From positions 1 to 24,518 of the IMG/VR virus record IMGVR_UViG_3300017917_000396: a stretch of DNA of 24,518 nucleotides; one strand, written 5' to 3'. The notes below the pieces were generated by a model. It was not told the DNA's origin. It worked only from the letters and a program-made list of their open reading frames with translations, and did not search any database. The translations under genes were made by a program, and so were the position numbers. Below are positions 10,630 through 23,473 of the stretch, in pieces (the stretch's first letter is position 1; every line of letters starts with the position of its first letter). Source of the stretch: a virus.

Positions 10630-11286
10630 TTATTTTCCAGCCTTGGCTAGGGCTGCTCCTTTGTTGAAACTGGGTGACCATGGACTCATTCCATCTACGC
10701 CACCGCGTGCCTTGCTCCAATTGTATCCTGCTCTATGACCTGAACAGTCTTTGGTACATTCACTGCCTAAAAAAGTCAATTCATCTAGTTGTTGTTCGTA
10801 TAGATCAGGATCAAAATCATCTGCTGAAATAAAATATGTAGTACCATCACGATGTTGTAATTGTACAGCATCATCTTCTGATTCTACTTGTGCAATGCTC
10901 CAACCCATGCTGTTTAGCACCGATTCAATCTGTGGTTGCTTGTCTGTGGCATTCCACCAACGATTGGCCAAAATCAACAATTGATCTGGAACATCATCGT
11001 CACGCTCGGGACGGCTGGGTGCAAATTCGTTTACTTTTGTTGCCACATTCTTGGCTTTGCCACGACGTTCTGGATTAGGATCTTCTCTGCGTTTTTTGGC
11101 CGCTGCACTTGCACGACCTTTTTTGCCTAAGGCATGTGCTTTTGATTGTGGCAAACACTTGGGCTTGCCTTCCGACTCGCTTCCTCTGGCACAGTCGCCA
11201 CGAATCTTGCCGTCAGGTCCAAAGCGAACCCATTTTTCTTTGAACCACTTGCGTAGGTCTTCAGAGATAAATTCACTGGCTCTCAT
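10630..11286 (-). CDS. Probable capsid-targeted protein with two Cys/basic modules (DUF5872-like N-terminal part)
   Basis: A 218-residue protein. MRASEFISE resembles the T4 internal-protein targeting peptide (MKTYQEFIAE), with gp21-type cleavage expected after ISE. Residues 11-80 form a basic module with WVRFGPDGKIRGDC, C32 and C44, a PKCLP turn, then an Arg/Lys-rich tail ending NPERRGKAKN; I recognise this as the DUF5872-type phage module. The middle (100-165) is acidic and helical. The C-terminus has a second module, ECTKDCSGHRAGYNWSKARG (176-195) followed by PSFNKGAALAKAGK. Both modules look suited to DNA or metal binding. The start and stop overlap or abut neighbours. Confidence 0.7.
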   Translation of the reverse strand: MRASEFISEDLRKWFKEKWVRFGPDGKIRGDCARGSESEGKPKCLPQSKAHALGKKGRASAAAKKRREDPNPERRGKAKNVATKVNEFAPSRPERDDDVPDQLLILANRWWNATDKQPQIESVLNSMGWSIAQVESEDDAVQLQHRDGTTYFISADDFDPDLYEQQLDELTFLGSECTKDCSGHRAGYNWSKARGGVDGMSPWSPSFNKGAALAKAGK

Positions 11287-14896: not shown

Positions 14897-15337
14897 TTAT
14901 GCTCTTGCGTCCTTTAAAAAACTCTTTAGCTGCCACATGTATTTGCCGTGTGCGTCTTGACGTTCTGCCATAAAGTTGGCAATGTCTTCACGCTTTTCGG
15001 CCTGTGCGGCTTCGAACACCTGCATGACCAAGTCTTTCATGGTCTGTGTGTCTGCTAATAATTCTTCTAACATAAGACGAGCACGTGGCACTTTGAGCTG
15101 GCCAGGTACAATTGATAATTCATTGAAACGCTCAAAACTGCCAGGAGCATATTCTTCCAAGGTACGGATATATTCAGCAATCTTGTCCACAGCACCATAA
15201 GCGTCGCCGTAGATTTCAGCAAAAAATTCGTGTAGTTGAGCAAAGTCAGGACCTTCCACATTCCAATGGAACATCTGTGCTTTTAAATAATAAGCAAAAT
15301 TACTGGCCAACAACTGTTTTAATAAATCACTCAACAT
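14897..15337 (-). CDS. dps: Dps-like ferritin (DNA protection/iron storage)
   Basis: A 146-residue protein of Dps type. HWNVEGPDFAQLHEFF (24-39) gives the two histidines H24 and H36 of the ferroxidase motif, and VDKIAEYI (50-57) gives D51 and E55, matching Listeria Dps H31, H43, D58 and E62. The remaining ligand, Asp47 in Listeria, is replaced by Ala40 (E41 is next to it), so iron oxidation may be altered. Dps proteins form 12-mers that bind DNA and detoxify iron and peroxide. Found among probable capsid cargo, it could condense or protect phage DNA, or act early in the host. It has no MRxxEFI-type leader of its own. It overlaps the upstream gene by 11 bases. Confidence 0.87.
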   Translation of the reverse strand: MLSDLLKQLLASNFAYYLKAQMFHWNVEGPDFAQLHEFFAEIYGDAYGAVDKIAEYIRTLEEYAPGSFERFNELSIVPGQLKVPRARLMLEELLADTQTMKDLVMQVFEAAQAEKREDIANFMAERQDAHGKYMWQLKSFLKDARA

Positions 15338-15835: not shown

Positions 15836-16420
15836 TTAAAGACTAAATGGGTCTATTATGACAATTTGACCGTCTTTTCTACGGCCTAGATTTTCAATTG
15901 AGCGTAAATCCAGCGGTGCTTGTCCGCCAATGGCATCTTCAAGATCTTGTGTGGCCATGACCAAGCCGTCAACTTGTTGTTCTGATAATTCGGGCGGTCT
16001 TTTTTTGTTTTGATAAAATGCTGCCAGGGCTTGTTCACCACGCGGTAATGCACTCATTAAATCTTCAATGTATTCAAGCACCCGATCTTCACCGCTTACT
16101 GGGTGCAAGTATTCCATTTCGTACACAAAGTAAGTTTCGCCGTCTACTGCAAAATCTCCGGCATTGTATATACGTGGATAGTGTGGATTACGCTGATTAC
16201 GCAAGAAGAACCCTACGTAAGTTTTTACTATGTCTTCACGCTCATCTTCGCCTATGCCCACAACTTTGAGCACTGTGCCACGTGGGCTTAGAAATGCTAT
16301 TTGATCACGGCCTTCGCCTAAGTATTTGTACCCACGATCAGTGAAGTAATCTTGTATGCGTTGACTAACTGATAATTCGTCGTCGGCATTGATTTCAGCA
16401 ATAAACTCTTGTGCTCGCAT
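15836..16420 (-). CDS. Probable capsid-targeted compact kinase-like protein
   Basis: I place the start at the internal ATG (16420), not the longer form at 16444: it gives MRAQEFIAEI, nearly identical to T4 MKTYQEFIAE, and overlaps the preceding TAA by 1 base. The 194-residue product has a kinase-like pattern: glycine-rich turn LGEGRDQIAF (34-43), strand with Lys VLKVVG (K52), hinge-like YFVYEMEYL (97-105), catalytic-loop-like DLRSIENLG (D171, N177) and metal-binding IIDP (D190 in the DFG position). It is shorter than classical kinases and ends 4 residues after D190, so the activation segment and C-lobe helices are missing. It may be a phosphotransferase, AMPylator or inactive relative. If packaged, it would reach the host at injection. 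Confidence 0.68.
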   Translation of the reverse strand: MRAQEFIAEINADDELSVSQRIQDYFTDRGYKYLGEGRDQIAFLSPRGTVLKVVGIGEDEREDIVKTYVGFFLRNQRNPHYPRIYNAGDFAVDGETYFVYEMEYLHPVSGEDRVLEYIEDLMSALPRGEQALAAFYQNKKRPPELSEQQVDGLVMATQDLEDAIGGQAPLDLRSIENLGRRKDGQIVIIDPFSL

Positions 16421-17202
16421 TATAAACCTGCCAAGGGTTCCCAACCCAAATTTTCAATACGATCAGCTGGAATATTTGCTTGAGCTCGGTACCAACCATC
16501 TTTATAAGTCAACGGAATACCGCGAATGTCAATCTTCAACAAATTTAGTTCTTCATCTGAATCTTCTGTTCTAGCATACAACCAACCAGCCACTTGATAT
16601 AACTCTTGGCGTAGTCGTTGTTGATCTCCTTCGTCTACCACTAGGTAAACATTGCCATCTCTGGGTCGTAATCCAACTGCGTCAATTTCTTCAGCATTTT
16701 CTTCTGTGGTTATGTGATATGCAGTATCAAATTCATGTTGTTCTTCCGACAACTGTTCGGATTCCATCATCTCAGCACCCACACGATCAGCAATTACCGA
16801 CCATGCTTCATAGTTGGCGTTGTCATTGATCACTAGTTCACGTTGTTCTGTGTCGTATAGTCTTTCGCCGGCTTCAAATAGAGCCCGGATGATAGCAGTA
16901 GCGGCACCTTTGTAGTTGCCAGCTGTGGCATCTTCTACCACAACAATCATTGAGTCACCTTCGGCATAGGCATTGAGCGTGAGATAAAATGCTCCACGCA
17001 CTGTGTCACCACCAGCAAATGCACTGGCCGCACCCTGTTGTCCTTTGGCTGTGGTCAATCCCACACCTTCTACCACTGACTTGCCGTAGAGTTTGACGCC
17101 TGGATAAAGTTCACCAAACGCATCTTGAGCCACTGCCACAATGTTCTGTGGTTGCATCTGTTCAAAGTCCACTGACTCAACAATAAACTCACGGGCTCTC
17201 AT
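16420..17202 (-). CDS. Probable capsid-targeted protein with ADP-ribosyltransferase-like C-terminal domain
   Basis: A 260-residue protein starting MRAREFIVES, a targeting-type peptide with cleavage after IVE. Residues 20-145 form an alpha/beta domain with segment ATAIIRALFEAGERLY and a NDNANYEAWSVIADRVGAE end that resembles GNAT acetyltransferases, though the acetyl-CoA loop is not clear. The C-terminal domain (158-255) follows the ART/RNA 2'-phosphotransferase-like pattern: TAYHIT (160-165), NAEEIDAVGLRPRDGNVYLV (169-188), LLKIDIRGIPL (221-231) and ANIPADRIENLG (242-253). T4 delivers an ART, Alt, from the capsid to modify host RNA polymerase, so an injected ART here is a natural parallel. 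NAD binding and targets are unproven. ATGA overlap with the upstream 59-codon gene. Confidence 0.68.
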   Translation of the reverse strand: MRAREFIVESVDFEQMQPQNIVAVAQDAFGELYPGVKLYGKSVVEGVGLTTAKGQQGAASAFAGGDTVRGAFYLTLNAYAEGDSMIVVVEDATAGNYKGAATAIIRALFEAGERLYDTEQRELVINDNANYEAWSVIADRVGAEMMESEQLSEEQHEFDTAYHITTEENAEEIDAVGLRPRDGNVYLVVDEGDQQRLRQELYQVAGWLYARTEDSDEELNLLKIDIRGIPLTYKDGWYRAQANIPADRIENLGWEPLAGL

Positions 17203-17378
17203 TTTATTTCCTTGACTGATCCTACCTGATGATCTTGAATTTGATATTGTTGTTTTAACATGGTTCTGGCAATCTGTGCGTTGGGTGCCCAGACTTGAGC
17301 ATCAACATAGCCCACATAGTTGGGTTGATTGATACGTACTTTGGCAGTCCACAGTTTACCTAGCTGTTTTATTTTCAT
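17199..17378 (-). CDS. 59-residue unknown protein
   Basis: An ORF starting MKIKQLGKLWTAKVRINQPN and ending QVGSVKEIK. It fills the gap between its neighbours: TGA overlaps the ATG of the ART-like gene (ATGA) and the ATG lies 6 bases after the preceding stop. It has a beta-strand start followed by a helix ANAQIARTMLKQQYQIQ-like segment (residues 31-48), the layout of small phage proteins of unknown role. There is no targeting leader and only a weak ribosome binding site. Confidence 0.62.
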   Translation of the reverse strand: MKIKQLGKLWTAKVRINQPNYVGYVDAQVWAPNAQIARTMLKQQYQIQDHQVGSVKEIK

Positions 17379-17384
17379 AATATA

Positions 17385-17675
17385 TTACTTATTCTTTTGG
17401 CGACCGCTCTTCATATTGGCGCACCAGTGATACATTTTGCCTTTTTCGCCACCGTACTTACGGGCCTTAGCTCTTAAATCAGTCACTGATCCGGAGCAAC
17501 TAGCACCAGCACGTTTTACACGGCCAGGACGACTTTTGCCCTTGACCTTGCCATCTGCAAAGTTTTCTTCAACTGAACTTTGTTCGTAGAGTCGATGTAA
17601 TTTGTAAGTGGTAGAACCGGCAAAGTCTGATATGTCTGCTTCGTAGCCTAAAGCACTGGCATAACGACGAACCAA
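17385..17675 (-). CDS. 3' part of a gene interrupted by an in-frame TGA, with C-terminal Cys/basic module
   Basis: The frame is open from the TGA of the upstream gene (17714-17712) to 17385, with no ATG near the beginning; the first usable start is a TTG at 17675, with no good ribosome binding site. Read from the TGA the sequence is QKAGTRSNLYTSLVRRYASA and continues naturally from the upstream protein, so this looks like one gene split by a stop. Residues 43 to the end form a basic module with ADGKVKGKSRPGRVKRAG, C60, then YHWCANMKSGRQKNK, similar in style to the other Cys/Arg modules of the operon. It could be expressed by readthrough or weak re-initiation, or be a dead fragment. Confidence 0.55.
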   Translation of the reverse strand: MVRRYASALGYEADISDFAGSTTYKLHRLYEQSSVEENFADGKVKGKSRPGRVKRAGASCSGSVTDLRAKARKYGGEKGKMYHWCANMKSGRQKNK

Positions 17676-17711
17676 ACTTGTGTATAAGTTTGATCTTGTG
17701 CCAGCCTTTTG

Positions 17712-18296
17712 TCAGGGCTCAACATCTTTGTTGGCACTGAAATATAATTGCTCGGGTTTTCTTTTTTCAATGAATTGTGCAATGGCCGCTAGTACTGTGG
17801 CAAACACACGCTGAGCATCTCCTGCTCCTGTGACTTCTTGACTGTTGTCTCGCCAAAACTCCACACTGTAAATACCTTGCCCTTCGTCATCGTAATCCTG
17901 ATTAAACATGATGCTCAGATTACTTCCATCGGGCAAGCGAGCCAAGGCATCCGCACTTTCATCTGCTTCACTCTTTTCCCAAGTAATAGGATAAGGAGCG
18001 TCAAAAGATTCCATGATACCAGTGGCACGGCGCAATCTCAAATCGTAGTCTACATCACTTTCATAGCGATCAACATAATCGGCATAATAGCGTTGAGCTT
18101 CTGTAGGAGTGTTGGCGTCAAACTTGTGAACTACCTTGTTAGGTGTTTCAGCATGATAGATTTCATAGCCTTTGTTGAGTCTATCACGCACACGAGCCAT
18201 GCGTTCTTGTCTTGCGTCAACTTGCTGATTGGCACGACTCAAATACTGCTGTAGACGCTCGTCACTAATCTCTGCTATAAATTCACAGGCTCTCAT
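17712..18296 (-). CDS. Probable capsid-targeted protein, truncated by an in-frame TGA
   Basis: A 194-residue protein starting MRACEFIAEISDE, a very good match to the T4 targeting peptide, with cleavage after IAE. Residues 12-90 are helical and Arg/Asp-rich. The following domain runs PITWEKSEADESADALARLP, SLSIMFN, YSVEFWRDNSQEVTGAGDAQ (about 142-161), RVFATVLAAIAQFIEKRKPE and ends QLYFSANKDVEP. In relatives I recall, this domain continues after the LYFSA strand into a helix like the one encoded just past the TGA (LYTSLVRRYASALGY), so the domain here is cut before its last helix. The ATG overlaps the stop of the 1726-residue gene by 4 bases. Function unknown. Confidence 0.68.
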   Translation of the reverse strand: MRACEFIAEISDERLQQYLSRANQQVDARQERMARVRDRLNKGYEIYHAETPNKVVHKFDANTPTEAQRYYADYVDRYESDVDYDLRLRRATGIMESFDAPYPITWEKSEADESADALARLPDGSNLSIMFNQDYDDEGQGIYSVEFWRDNSQEVTGAGDAQRVFATVLAAIAQFIEKRKPEQLYFSANKDVEP

Positions 18297-21200
18297 TTTT
18301 TCTGTTTCTTTGCTTCTGGACTGATCTTTACAATCACCGCTGGATTAACCGCAGGATCATCCTTGCGTGGTACTTGATTGTACTTGGTACGCATGGCGTC
18401 TTGTCTTACTGGCGCCACTGGAGTGACTTTTGTTTCTTTGACTTTATTCTTGCGATCCAACATGTTGTAATGACCATTGTCCAACTTCAGTGCATTCACA
18501 GCCATTTGCATCACAGTGTTCTTAGCTGATTGCGGCACAGCGGCCCAGTTAGCATAGCCCAACTTCTTGGCAGCTGCATCCATGGCATTACGAGCTTTTT
18601 GTGCGTCATCAATACTTTCATTTGTTGCGGTTGACATCTTTGGTCTAACAGCAAAGCGTTCTCTGTAAGTATCAGGATCTTCTGCTCCAACAGTACGCAA
18701 CCAACTCAAGGCCTGTTGCATTGCTTCACGTTCGTTGTGATCAGCAATGTTGCGTAATACGGTACCAGTTTCTTGATCATACAAATCCCACAAAGGAACA
18801 CCGTTGGCAGAACGAGCCTGTTGAGGTTGATTTGTGGCCGCTGATGCCATAGCACGATAGCCATAGTTTTCTGTGTCTATGGGCATGCCTTGATTGCGTA
18901 GCCAGTTGTTGAATTTGTCTCCAGCATCTGTGGCAGAATCAGCACTGTATTGTAGCATCACACGATTGGTTCTGCGATCCACAATCTCATACTGACCACT
19001 ATCTTGATCTACGGTGATGTCAATGTCACGCACCTGTGGGTCTAATCTTTGTTGAATTTGACGACTGTCACGAGCATTGTCTATGGCCTGTTGAGCATTT
19101 GACGCTCGTTGTACTGAGAAGTTTTCTACATCCAGACCCTTGTCTCGCAAATAGGTCACAGAAAAATCCACAGCCTGACTCATGGTACTAGCACGGAATG
19201 TGTAGAATGGCAATAGGCTGTGTTTGTTGATGATCACATAGTCACGTGGCTGTGCAATCTGCTTGGCCAACTTGGCTCTACGGCTCAACTTGGGTTCTGG
19301 CTCAGACGGTTGCTCGCCACCATAGGGTTCAATGTAATATGGAATAACATCTGTGTATTTTTCATATGCTTGATCCGAGGCTTCCCCACGTGTAGCAGCA
19401 TCGATGATTTCCAAGGTTTCGTGATTGTCACGACGTATCACACGCCAACGGCCTGTATTGGTGCCCACATCACGTAATTCGTAAGTCTGATTAAAATCTG
19501 TCATGGAACTAGCTGGACTAACTTTGGCCTTGGCACGTTCAATAGCATCCAATTCTGTATAGTTAGAATAGTCTTGTCCGGGCACAGGTTCTCCGGTTCT
19601 ACGGTTGTACAAACGCCAGTTTGATTTTTTGTTGTCTGCCGGAACTTCCTTGGAAATGACTTTTTCAGCCCACTGCTTTTTGAGTTGTTCTGCTGTGATT
19701 TCACCGGCGCTGAACTTGCTGAACAATTCTAGATCTTTATTGCCTTCAGGAGCAATAAGTTTGTATAACTTCTTGTAGTATTCTGGACGCTCTAGGTCAG
19801 GACGACCTGCCAAGTACATGGCATAGGCAAAGCGACGCATGGTGTCTTCCAACACGTTGATTTCTTCGTCGGCTTTGGCCAAGTAATCACCACCTGGGCT
19901 ACGGAATTCAATGTAGCCGTCTTTGATGTGTGCTGATGTATATTTGCTGTTGCCCACTCCTTGCTGTACATAGTTCTGTGCCAGTTCCAACAAGTTGTTC
20001 TTCATCAACTCCATGGCTGATGCAATCTTGTCATCGTTGCGATTCTTGCTGCCAGCAACGTTTTGTTTGAGTTTTTCCATGGCACTTGCTGTGTAGGTAT
20101 TGGCCGCACGACCAAACTTGTCCAACACATACTTGTCGCCCATGAATAATATTAACTTCAAGTAGTCAACATCGCCACCTTTGTAGGGTATTGATACACC
20201 CATGTGTAGTCCAGTTGATCTGTTGGTATAGGCATTGCCTTCGTTGGGATCATTGGCCCATTCAACGACCTTTTGCAGTTGCTCAATGGCCTGATTTAAC
20301 GGCATAGGTGGGCTAACAATTTCCAAGCCTACTTCTTCATTTTTGTCGTCGGGATCTAATGATCCGTCGGGTTCAATCACATAGTAATCACCACGCTTTT
20401 GACTGTGGTATCCTGAACTAACTTTCACAGGCATGCCAGTGGCATTGCGCAGGCTCACACCAATGTCGTCCCAATCACGTGATCCGTAGTTGCTGTTTCC
20501 GCCACCAGTGTAGTAGGGCCAATCCAGACTGTACTCGTTGGCCACATCGCTCATCCAGCGCAGGCCGATGTCATTAAAGAAATCGCTGTCGTCTGCATCA
20601 TATCCGTCACGGAAGTTGTCCAGAGCTTGATCATAGTAGCCGTCTTGATTGTCTATGCTGGCTTCAACTTCTTCATCCAAGATCTCGTCAGCAATGTCCA
20701 CAGCTTCAAGGTATTGAGCATATCTTTCATTCTCTTTTTTGTATTCTTCTTGATCTGCATTCTTTGTAAAGCGTGGTGCTTTATTACCAGCAGCCATAAC
20801 TTGATCAGCTTCGGCATCATCCAGGCCCATGCCATCTGTCAAGGCACTGAGTATGCGCTCGTCCATTGGACGTTCTTCCAACCATACTTCACGCACAAGA
20901 TCTTCTGATTCACGATTAAACGCATCAATGATTTGATCATCGCGCCACTCAAAGTAGGCTTCATCCAATTGATTTCTCAAGCGGTCGGCCTGGCGATCAC
21001 TGAGTCCATATCCGTATTCATCATTCATGAAAAAATCAATGACTTCGTCAACGGTCCTTGCACGCTCGTCCATGTCATAGTCGGGTTCCATGTCTTGCTC
21101 TTCAGCATCTCCGGCAGTGTCACGGAAAATTAATTCTGCTTCAAACCCAGCACGTATGCCTTCTGCTTCTGGGCTACTAGCAAACTTGGCCAAAGCACTC

Positions 21201-23473
21201 GGGCTCATTTTAACTTCGTCTAATTCTACACTTTCACGCACAGGAACATTTTTCAAGTAGTGTGGGTTGATAGCAATAACATCACCTACCTTTAGTTTGC
21301 CACGACCATCGGCAGCCACAATGCGAATTTTGGTTTTCTTTGTGCTGGTGTCAATCACTTGCCCAACCACACTGTCGTAGCCTTGATACATGCGAGTCAA
21401 GTCTAGCAATTCTTCATTTACGTTGTATGTGGGATCAGTTTTGATCTTGCGTCCAGGACGTTGCACAGGATCTGCGGGATCAATGTCAGTGACATCCAGG
21501 CCAGTGGCTTCTAGGTCGCCAATGAATTTGTGTTCTGTATCTTCGTCGCCAAAGCTCACAATGGTACTGGGAGGTCCTTGACCAAAATCATGCTGGCCCA
21601 GACCCTTCATGTTGGCAATGTGTTGACCCAGTTTGTACCAGTCATAAACATCACTAACATCCACACGCACAGTGCCTTTGGGCATGGTGGGCTTGAACTC
21701 TGGTCCTGGCGGTGTTTGATTGCCCAAACTGTCTATACGACCTGTTTCTTTGAATTCACGTAGGGCGTTGCGTAGACCCTTGATCAACAAGTCAGGATGT
21801 CCTTGACTGTCTGTGTCTAATTTTAATTTGTTGGCTTCCTTGCCCACTTGACCAGGTTTGATATCCTGGGTGAGTGCCATGCTAAAACGTGGATCTTTGC
21901 TTTGTTTCTTTGTGGGAATATAACCTGATGCTGATTCATTCTGCGGCTCTGGCTTTTCCATTTTCTTTTGCAGTTGATACAAACGACTTTGATTCTTGGC
22001 ATTGGCTGATCCTGGACCTTGTCCTTGTGCTCGGATAAAGTTGCGTAGCTCTTGATCTAGTTCAGCTTGTACACCTTGCTTGGTCATGCCTTTTACAGTC
22101 TGTGCTGTGCGTCCCACAGTTTGTACATCCTTTGCAACCTGGCCTGTTGTGGTAGCACAACCAGGTGTGCCTGCTATACAGGCAGCTGCTGCAAGTCCTG
22201 CTGCTTTTTCTTTCCAACCTTCTTCGATGCCTGTTAGGTCATCGGCTTGTCCGTGTGCAAAATATTCTGGGTGCAGTCTAGCATAGTCGCGCATGAGTAT
22301 GCCAGCACGTGCATTGGCTTCGTTTTCGTACCGGCTACCAGTTTCTCCAGCATCTGCAGGCACTGCTTCACGCTCGTGCTGACGACGGTGTGTGAGTTCA
22401 TGAGCTACTGTACGCAACACATCCATGATGTGACGATTGCCCCAGGCCACTTCCAACATGTCACGATCATCTATGTAGCGACCAAAGGTCTTGTGTACTT
22501 CAGGCCACTGTGGATCACGACGCAATTTGATTGTGGGCAGTTTTTGTATTTTTAATTCTTTTACACAAAAATCCACAAAGTCTCTTAGTATTTGTTCGTC
22601 AGTGGGCGCATTGACTTTTTCTTCAATGCTTTCACCACCGCCATCTCCACCACCTGCGTCTGCAGAACCAGCATCGGATCCAGTGTCAAAATTGTAGCCT
22701 GGATACCAATATCCACCAAAACCGTATTTTACTTTTTTCTTTTTGGATTTCTTTTTACGACGCTCATTCAAACTCATTTCGGCATCCTGAGCCGCTGTTC
22801 TAGCATCATATAATTTTTTGATCAGGCCTTGGTTGCGCAACATTTTATAGGCCAAGTTCTCAGCGCCTAGTTCGCCATGTGCATCAAGTCCTGCCTGACG
22901 CATGTTTTTGATTTTCTTTGCCAACTCTGCAATAGCAACACCATCTTGGGAAGCAATGGCAGATTCAATTCTGTGTCCAAGGTCTTCAAACTTGCTCTTG
23001 ACTGCTTCATCGTTCACCGTGGCACGTATTTTACGTGGAATTTTAACCCAGTCATTGTTCATCACTGAGTATATGCCCTGACTCACTGGTTGCTTGCGGG
23101 CATCTTCTACATAGAGCTCTACATCGTAGCCACCAATGGTGATATTGTGTTGATCATTGTACTGATACTTTTTGGCATCAAACAATTCACGATAAACATC
23201 AGACTCGTCGGCCTGTGGAATATCTACCACTAGGTGTAAATCAATGTCTGAATAAGGTGTGTAAGTGTATCCGGCATTGGAGCCTGATACTGTGATGTCT
23301 TTTACTTCTATGTCACTTAGACCCAAAAACTCTTTGAAATCTTGAGCAATGACCATGAGTCGCTCACGCACCTCTGGTTTCATTTTGTCACCGGACCAGA
23401 TGGCAGGATTTAATTGGTCATTGAATTTAACAGCATCTGCTAAATTATAGGAATCTAATTCTGTGATGTTCAT
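18293..23473 (-). CDS. Giant multidomain protein: nucleotidyltransferase, HExxH metallopeptidase, amidoligase-like, tandem repeats
   Basis: A 1726-residue protein. Domains in order: nucleotidyltransferase fold, VSGSNAGYTYTPYSDIDLHL (62-81; D76, D78) with D117 in YDVELYVE; a Lys-rich and Gly/Asp-rich linker (235-290); a zinc metallopeptidase, VAHELTHRRQHE (H358, E359, H362) with YENEAN (382-387) giving the third ligand; a hydrophobic Ala-rich segment (424-441); an unnamed domain near 600-740 with a KOW/SH3-like strand set; an amidoligase-like (glutamine-synthetase-fold) domain from GFEAELIF (776-783) through GLEIVSPP (1049-1056), STGLHMGVS (1086-1094) and YIEFRSPGGDY (1187-1197); then about five repeats of some 50-70 residues (1285-1612). 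Sites like the gp21 cleavage motif (LNE 235-237, IEE 283-285 and 416-418, LDE 751-753) lie between domains, so it may be a polyprotein. It has a promoter but no clear ribosome binding site. First gene of the cargo operon. Confidence 0.85.
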   Translation of the reverse strand: MNITELDSYNLADAVKFNDQLNPAIWSGDKMKPEVRERLMVIAQDFKEFLGLSDIEVKDITVSGSNAGYTYTPYSDIDLHLVVDIPQADESDVYRELFDAKKYQYNDQHNITIGGYDVELYVEDARKQPVSQGIYSVMNNDWVKIPRKIRATVNDEAVKSKFEDLGHRIESAIASQDGVAIAELAKKIKNMRQAGLDAHGELGAENLAYKMLRNQGLIKKLYDARTAAQDAEMSLNERRKKKSKKKKVKYGFGGYWYPGYNFDTGSDAGSADAGGGDGGGESIEEKVNAPTDEQILRDFVDFCVKELKIQKLPTIKLRRDPQWPEVHKTFGRYIDDRDMLEVAWGNRHIMDVLRTVAHELTHRRQHEREAVPADAGETGSRYENEANARAGILMRDYARLHPEYFAHGQADDLTGIEEGWKEKAAGLAAAACIAGTPGCATTTGQVAKDVQTVGRTAQTVKGMTKQGVQAELDQELRNFIRAQGQGPGSANAKNQSRLYQLQKKMEKPEPQNESASGYIPTKKQSKDPRFSMALTQDIKPGQVGKEANKLKLDTDSQGHPDLLIKGLRNALREFKETGRIDSLGNQTPPGPEFKPTMPKGTVRVDVSDVYDWYKLGQHIANMKGLGQHDFGQGPPSTIVSFGDEDTEHKFIGDLEATGLDVTDIDPADPVQRPGRKIKTDPTYNVNEELLDLTRMYQGYDSVVGQVIDTSTKKTKIRIVAADGRGKLKVGDVIAINPHYLKNVPVRESVELDEVKMSPSALAKFASSPEAEGIRAGFEAELIFRDTAGDAEEQDMEPDYDMDERARTVDEVIDFFMNDEYGYGLSDRQADRLRNQLDEAYFEWRDDQIIDAFNRESEDLVREVWLEERPMDERILSALTDGMGLDDAEADQVMAAGNKAPRFTKNADQEEYKKENERYAQYLEAVDIADEILDEEVEASIDNQDGYYDQALDNFRDGYDADDSDFFNDIGLRWMSDVANEYSLDWPYYTGGGNSNYGSRDWDDIGVSLRNATGMPVKVSSGYHSQKRGDYYVIEPDGSLDPDDKNEEVGLEIVSPPMPLNQAIEQLQKVVEWANDPNEGNAYTNRSTGLHMGVSIPYKGGDVDYLKLILFMGDKYVLDKFGRAANTYTASAMEKLKQNVAGSKNRNDDKIASAMELMKNNLLELAQNYVQQGVGNSKYTSAHIKDGYIEFRSPGGDYLAKADEEINVLEDTMRRFAYAMYLAGRPDLERPEYYKKLYKLIAPEGNKDLELFSKFSAGEITAEQLKKQWAEKVISKEVPADNKKSNWRLYNRRTGEPVPGQDYSNYTELDAIERAKAKVSPASSMTDFNQTYELRDVGTNTGRWRVIRRDNHETLEIIDAATRGEASDQAYEKYTDVIPYYIEPYGGEQPSEPEPKLSRRAKLAKQIAQPRDYVIINKHSLLPFYTFRASTMSQAVDFSVTYLRDKGLDVENFSVQRASNAQQAIDNARDSRQIQQRLDPQVRDIDITVDQDSGQYEIVDRRTNRVMLQYSADSATDAGDKFNNWLRNQGMPIDTENYGYRAMASAATNQPQQARSANGVPLWDLYDQETGTVLRNIADHNEREAMQQALSWLRTVGAEDPDTYRERFAVRPKMSTATNESIDDAQKARNAMDAAAKKLGYANWAAVPQSAKNTVMQMAVNALKLDNGHYNMLDRKNKVKETKVTPVAPVRQDAMRTKYNQVPRKDDPAVNPAVIVKISPEAKKQKK
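18638..19621 (-). repeat. Tandem protein-level repeats at the C-terminus of the giant protein
   Basis: Residues about 1285-1612 hold roughly five related units that share a strand-turn-strand start and a helix with A/Y-x3-A: NWRLYNRRTGEPVPG, RWRVIRRDNHETLEI, DYVIINKHSLLPFYT, QYEIVDRRTNRVMLQ and LWDLYDQETGTVLRN, each followed by a helix (for example EREAMQQALSWLR). Units are diverged, so the repeat is visible in protein and not in DNA. Such repeats usually bind a ligand or partner. Confidence 0.6.

Follow-up and report, generated by a model that had tools for sequence, protein, structure and literature searches.

The window is the whole stretch of DNA analysed here (24,518 nucleotides, IMG/VR record IMGVR_UViG_3300017917_000396). 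It represents a 24.5-kb virus fragment with a family-B-type DNA polymerase (phrog_262), and the source of the gene under study is an uncultured tailed phage. An intact ORF of 260 aa (P0001) was found on the minus strand, with an ATG at 17202 and a TAA ending at 16420, while the plus strand of the same interval is full of stops. The first-pass annotation had placed the gene at 16420-17202 with the strand unstated; its coordinates are correct, and the strand is minus. The features of the locus are as follows.

16420..17202, minus strand: main gene, P0001, 260 aa, stop codon included; an orthologue is present in the related contig L002, with dN/dS <1 in both domains
17176..17202, minus strand: leader MRAREFIVE, followed by S, with a likely prohead-protease site I-x-E; common to four unrelated window genes
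16765..17172, minus strand: middle domain, residues 11-146; 83-93% identity in four other phage contigs
16423..16734, minus strand: C-terminal ART-like domain (C-domain), residues 157-260; triad positions H163, Y186, and Y238
17199..17378, minus strand: 59-aa ORF (MKIKQLGKLW...), which shares ATGA (17199-17202) with the start of the main gene
15836..16420, minus strand: next gene, leader MRAQEFIAE and a kinase-like domain (phrog_15752); one-base overlap with the stop of the main gene
17712..18296 (also given as 17646-18296), minus strand: upstream gene with leader MRACEFIAE, phrog_16075-like
10630..11286, minus strand: further gene with the shared leader, MRASEFISE

The main gene sits within a densely packed minus-strand run, and no terminator-like site was found between 15700 and 18400. 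The tight packing and the lack of such a site suggest that the genes of this run are probably co-translated. The gene at 15836-16420 matched phrog_15752 (protein kinase, inhibitor of host transcription) with an E-value of 5.9e-7, and its counterpart in the L002 contig has a GNAT segment between the leader and the kinase. The phrog_16075-like gene at 17646-18296 is cut by an in-frame TGA, at which the frame of its L002 relative reads on. A Dps/ferritin-like gene (14897-15337, minus strand; PF00210, 2.9e-21) lies amid the leader-tagged genes. The minus-strand gene at 18293-23473 encodes a 1726-aa multidomain protein that resembles phage polyvalent proteins, with segments that are nucleotidyltransferase-like, HELTH metalloprotease-like (by eye), and related to Amidoligase_2 (E 8.5e-7).

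Variants of the P0001 leader (MRASEFISE, MRAQEFIAE, and MRACEFIAE) open three other window genes, which have nothing in common in the rest of their sequence. Further genes with a leader of the RA-x-EFI-x-E type occur in the related contigs. The pattern RA-x-EF-[ILV]-x-E was present in 4 of the 26 window genes; the chance per N-terminus was about 2e-7 under the window composition, a value that is indicative only because the pattern was set after seeing the data. A core profile of eleven leaders was used to rank 38 N-termini (37 T4 proteins and the YHGT protein of Caulobacter phage Cr30), allowing up to six start offsets. IPIII and IPII tied at the top, followed by the Cr30 protein in third place, IPI in fourth, and Alt in seventh. 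This offset-tolerant ranking came second; a prior scoring without offsets had not placed the T4 internal proteins near the top, the T4 leader being one residue longer. The recurrence of the leader and the top rank of IPII and IPIII give statistical support to the capsid-targeting-type N-terminus that had been proposed from the first reading. P0001 carries an N-terminal leader with an (L/I)-x-E site, as do T4-type capsid-targeting sequences, and the likely cut at I-x-E was assigned with the prohead-protease cleavage rule. T4 loads proteins into the prohead via leaders of 10-20 residues, which are removed by gp21, and the role of its capsid-targeting sequence in protein packaging is established (PMC5694885, PMC9958956). 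The packaged cargo of T4 comprises diverse anti-defence proteins (PMC3012670, PMC12373910).

Since the leader core best matches the capsid-targeting sequence of T4 IPII and IPIII, we infer with good reason that P0001 is packaged and injected. A search of the related contigs for a prohead protease (Peptidase_S77) was empty and is uninformative, because the controls were silent too. If P0001 were not injected, EFIxE would be a coincidental motif or another assembly tag, and the protein would act in the cytoplasm after its expression. Some neighbour genes indeed have no clear leader, but the repetition of the leader on unrelated proteins and its best likeness to the T4 capsid-targeting sequence make this quite improbable. 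Should the leader function as it does in T4, it would serve as a readable address label, with at least four cargo proteins in the window alone, and the injected effectors of uncultured myoviruses could be listed from sequence.

Four further loci related to P0001 (L002-L005) were found in IMG/VR. L002 encodes the whole protein with 73% identity, and the P0001 orthologue there has the equivalent of the upstream 59-aa ORF fused to its N-terminus. L003-L005 match only residues 2-146. The C-domain is evidently a separable module, because the ORFs of L003-L005 end where it would start. Between the window and L002, the middle domain showed 93% identity (dS 0.64, dN/dS about 0.08), whereas the C-domain showed 57% identity with a dS of 1.8 and a dN/dS of about 0.19, which is a rough value because dS is near saturation. 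The gene is thus under purifying selection in both domains relative to L002, and the C-domain has evolved much faster than the middle domain. This difference in identity and dS suggests domain-wise exchange. Scans of the collection with the C-domain alone, C-domain alignments, and the SIOphi protein described below added no full-length member to L002 among the viral contigs and gave none among the genome contigs. That L002 is the only full-length homologue known counts against the explanation favoured below.

The middle domain matched no entry in any library searched. The window sequence NYKGAA (QYKGAA in L002) and the NDNANxxAW after it look like GNAT motifs A and B, and this likeness presumably prompted the GNAT-like label of the first-pass annotation; the match of the former to the acetyl-CoA motif Q/R-x-x-G-x-G/A is too short to exclude chance. 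These Q/N-Y-K-G-A-A and N-x-N-x-x-x-A-W motifs, together with a low-confidence model whose elements run beta-beta-alpha-beta-alpha, could point to a GNAT acetyltransferase in the middle domain that provides the main effector activity. However, PF00583 and PF13508 did not match the window even at E 10, although they detected the GNAT segment of the neighbouring gene, a kinase fusion, in the L002 contig, and hhalign of the middle domain against that GNAT segment scored below shuffles. An acetyltransferase as the main activity is therefore unlikely, and the GNAT-like label of the first-pass annotation, which found no profile support, has only the Q/N-Y-K-G-A-A motif behind it. Homology of the middle domain with the phrog_16075-like neighbour was also considered and was rejected, as the score fell below shuffles.

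The three motifs originally noticed in the C-domain, YHIT, GLRPRDGNVYLV, and IPADRIENL, are all present (H163, Y186, and residues 244-252), in the same order as in the homologous YHVT family. Direct searches with P0001 against Pfam, PHROGs, NCBIfam, PADLOC, and PDB gave nothing meaningful; a match to AAA_25 (E 0.18) was dismissed as noise. PF01885 did not match the window at E 10, and control genomes were positive. Two leads came from tblastn, Bacillus phage SIOphi AGK86882 and Caulobacter phage Cr30 AGS80945, with E-values of 4-6, which on their own are at noise level. Profile comparison with the C-domain yielded scores of 39.6 (Cr30) and 36.5 (SIOphi) against null maxima of 19.0 for shuffles and 19.6 for 235 ORFs; both proteins had been picked from a large search, for which these nulls alone are lenient. 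Clear homologues of the SIOphi protein were detected on many plasmids (Pseudomonas, Acetobacter, Jeotgalibacillus, and Euzebya), and the resulting YHVT family consists of standalone proteins of about 100 aa from bacterial plasmids and SPO1-like phages. When the window and L002 domains were aligned by hhalign with the YHVT profile, a probability of 96.9 and an E-value of 1.4e-10 were obtained over residues 3-101. A reciprocal HMM of 12 non-window proteins, searched against the five contigs, returned the window and L002 domains as the top two hits (E 2e-7; next 1.5). By these profile comparisons, homology to the YHVT family extends along the entire C-domain.

None of the tested YHVT members has a dedicated Pfam, NCBIfam, or PADLOC family. 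Plasmid members (L036, L037, L042, L043, and L044) were located directly upstream of an integrase gene, and this position suggests that the plasmid genes are carried on mobile elements. The L043 copy is broken by a stop in the YHVT start region.

Against PDB, the YHVT profile matched only ARTs, namely Tpt1 (best E 0.0025) and DarT1 (0.29 and 0.56), and against NCBIfam it matched RNA 2'-phosphotransferase alone (E 0.0076). The YHGT domain of Cr30 AGS80945 matched phrog_5470, RNA 2'-phosphotransferase, with an E-value of 1.4e-6, and the Cr30 protein also gave weak matches to PARP, PTS_2-RNA, and ART-PolyVal. The ART core motif is accordingly reached through the YHVT family, the window sequence alone having no PDB match; a window profile gave no significant match to E. 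coli KptA (E 0.11). The direct link to ARTs is confined to a YHxT...GLxP stretch of about 22 residues and its E-values are marginal, which counts against the favoured explanation. AlphaFold2 models were of unusably low confidence (pLDDT 37 for the full protein and 35 for the C-domain with fragment rows), a further point against it. Since the C-domain is homologous to a family whose PDB matches are only ARTs, its assignment as a distant ART/2'-phosphotransferase-like domain is supported, indirectly but consistently, in agreement with the original reading of this domain. Its tie to the ART superfamily makes the YHVT family testable.

Among the 12 YHVT proteins, the His of YHxT was conserved in 11, the twelfth being the copy broken at that place, the Tyr of VYxF in 10, the Glu of GYE in all 12, and the Arg of IGxRS in 11. 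The H-Y-E triad of the family resembles that of PARP and DarT-type ARTs. An HY-[EDQ] ART clade has been named (PMC9503650). The corresponding window residues are H163, Y186 (placed by a genafpair alignment), and Y238, which replaces the family Glu. The triad of L002 is H-F-H, with Phe at the Tyr186 position and His at the Glu position. The H/Y/E-type conservation expected at first thus holds for the His, holds for the Tyr in the window only, and fails for the Glu in both proteins. The Arg-Ser of IGxRS and the GE of NWLGE are also lost in the window domain.

These residues bear on whether the C-domain is catalytic. It may be an active mono-ADP-ribosyltransferase that uses NAD+ to modify a host macromolecule as Alt does, from an unrelated ART clade. 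The ART-type core motifs, the packaging leader, and the retained H163 are consistent with such an activity, but the family Glu and Arg are gone and L002 has H-F-H, so that activity of this kind appears rather doubtful. Human PARPs with H-Y-Y triads include active mono-ARTs, and the Glu change therefore does not settle the matter; the loss of Glu nevertheless takes away the strongest argument for activity. Alternatively, a degenerate ART may persist as a binding module only, acting as a decoy for NAD+/ADP-ribose or an RNA end or through contact with other proteins; defences that depend on NAD+ or on restriction could, for instance, be blunted in this way. The loss of catalytic positions under continued purifying selection points in this direction, and the T4 internal proteins are specific inhibitors of restriction enzymes (PMC12373910). 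The much faster evolution of the C-domain than of the middle domain argues against it, and a function limited to binding is likewise not the probable answer. For the domain itself, catalysis and non-catalytic binding each appear to have a little under an even chance, and some other function is improbable.

The best explanation, which we regard as reasonably probable, is that P0001 is a head-packaged, injected phage effector with a divergent ART-superfamily C-domain. The MRAREFIVE leader would dock P0001 in the prohead core, and a gp21-type protease would probably cut it after I-V-E. The mature two-domain protein would then enter the cell together with the DNA. Its C-domain, which would belong as a divergent member to a small ART-superfamily family of the HY-E type, would most likely bind NAD+, an ADP-ribose-like ligand, or a nucleic-acid end, and may act early on a component of host defence or gene expression, either as an atypical mono-ADP-ribosyltransferase with an H-Y-Y triad or, without catalysis, as a binder or decoy. 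A more specific proposal is tentative: the locus could be a swappable array of injected effectors tagged with one capsid-targeting leader and exchanged domains, in which P0001 would be a new ART-fold type with a replaced catalytic Glu. It would then either transfer ADP-ribose as an atypical mono-ADP-ribosyltransferase or counter host defences by binding NAD+/ADP-ribose.

T4 IPI, IPII, and IPIII likewise place a short N-terminal leader with an EFIxE core on unrelated cargo, and QEFIAE is identical in the window gene at 15836 and in IPII and IPIII. The window leader is one residue shorter (MRAx versus MKTYx), the cargo is unrelated, and packaging is here proposed from the leader. The T4-like Caulobacter phage Cr30 protein AGS80945 (L030:3004-3321) also combines a T4-type leader (MKTFKQFFNE) with a small YHGT domain; this uncharacterised protein has no middle domain and retains a Glu close to the final strand. 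As a phage that can be cultured, Cr30 offers a test case for a packaged mini-ART. The YHVT family, to which SIOphi AGK86882 and plasmid proteins including WP_124297611 belong, is homologous to the entire C-domain; it is standalone and keeps H-Y-E, IGxRS, and NWLGE, whereas the window domain follows a leader and a middle domain in one protein and has lost the E, R-S, and GE. Tpt1/KptA and DarT have the YHxT...GLxP core motif in common with the YHVT family, but the similarity covers only about 22 residues and P0001 lacks the KptA N-terminal domain.

T4 Alt, a head-packaged ADP-ribosyltransferase of the Alt/VIP2 family (RSE clade), would share with P0001 the proposed strategy of a packaged and injected ART-superfamily protein. 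P0001 differs in its H-type rather than R-S-E-type core and in its far smaller size of 260 aa, and the earlier view that it is unrelated to Alt agrees with the lack of meaningful Pfam, PHROGs, or NCBIfam matches, including those to Alt-type profiles. P0001 works, at most, like Alt, with the same delivery, a different ART clade, and an altered triad. Head-packaged ARTs of several families have been described as common or enriched in myoviruses, and about 44% of phage ARTs occur in contexts that suggest packaging (PMC9503650), so that the suggestion of an independent solution was overstated. Because head-packaged phage ARTs are already documented, P0001 is best classed as a divergent form of this known strategy, with shuffled domains.
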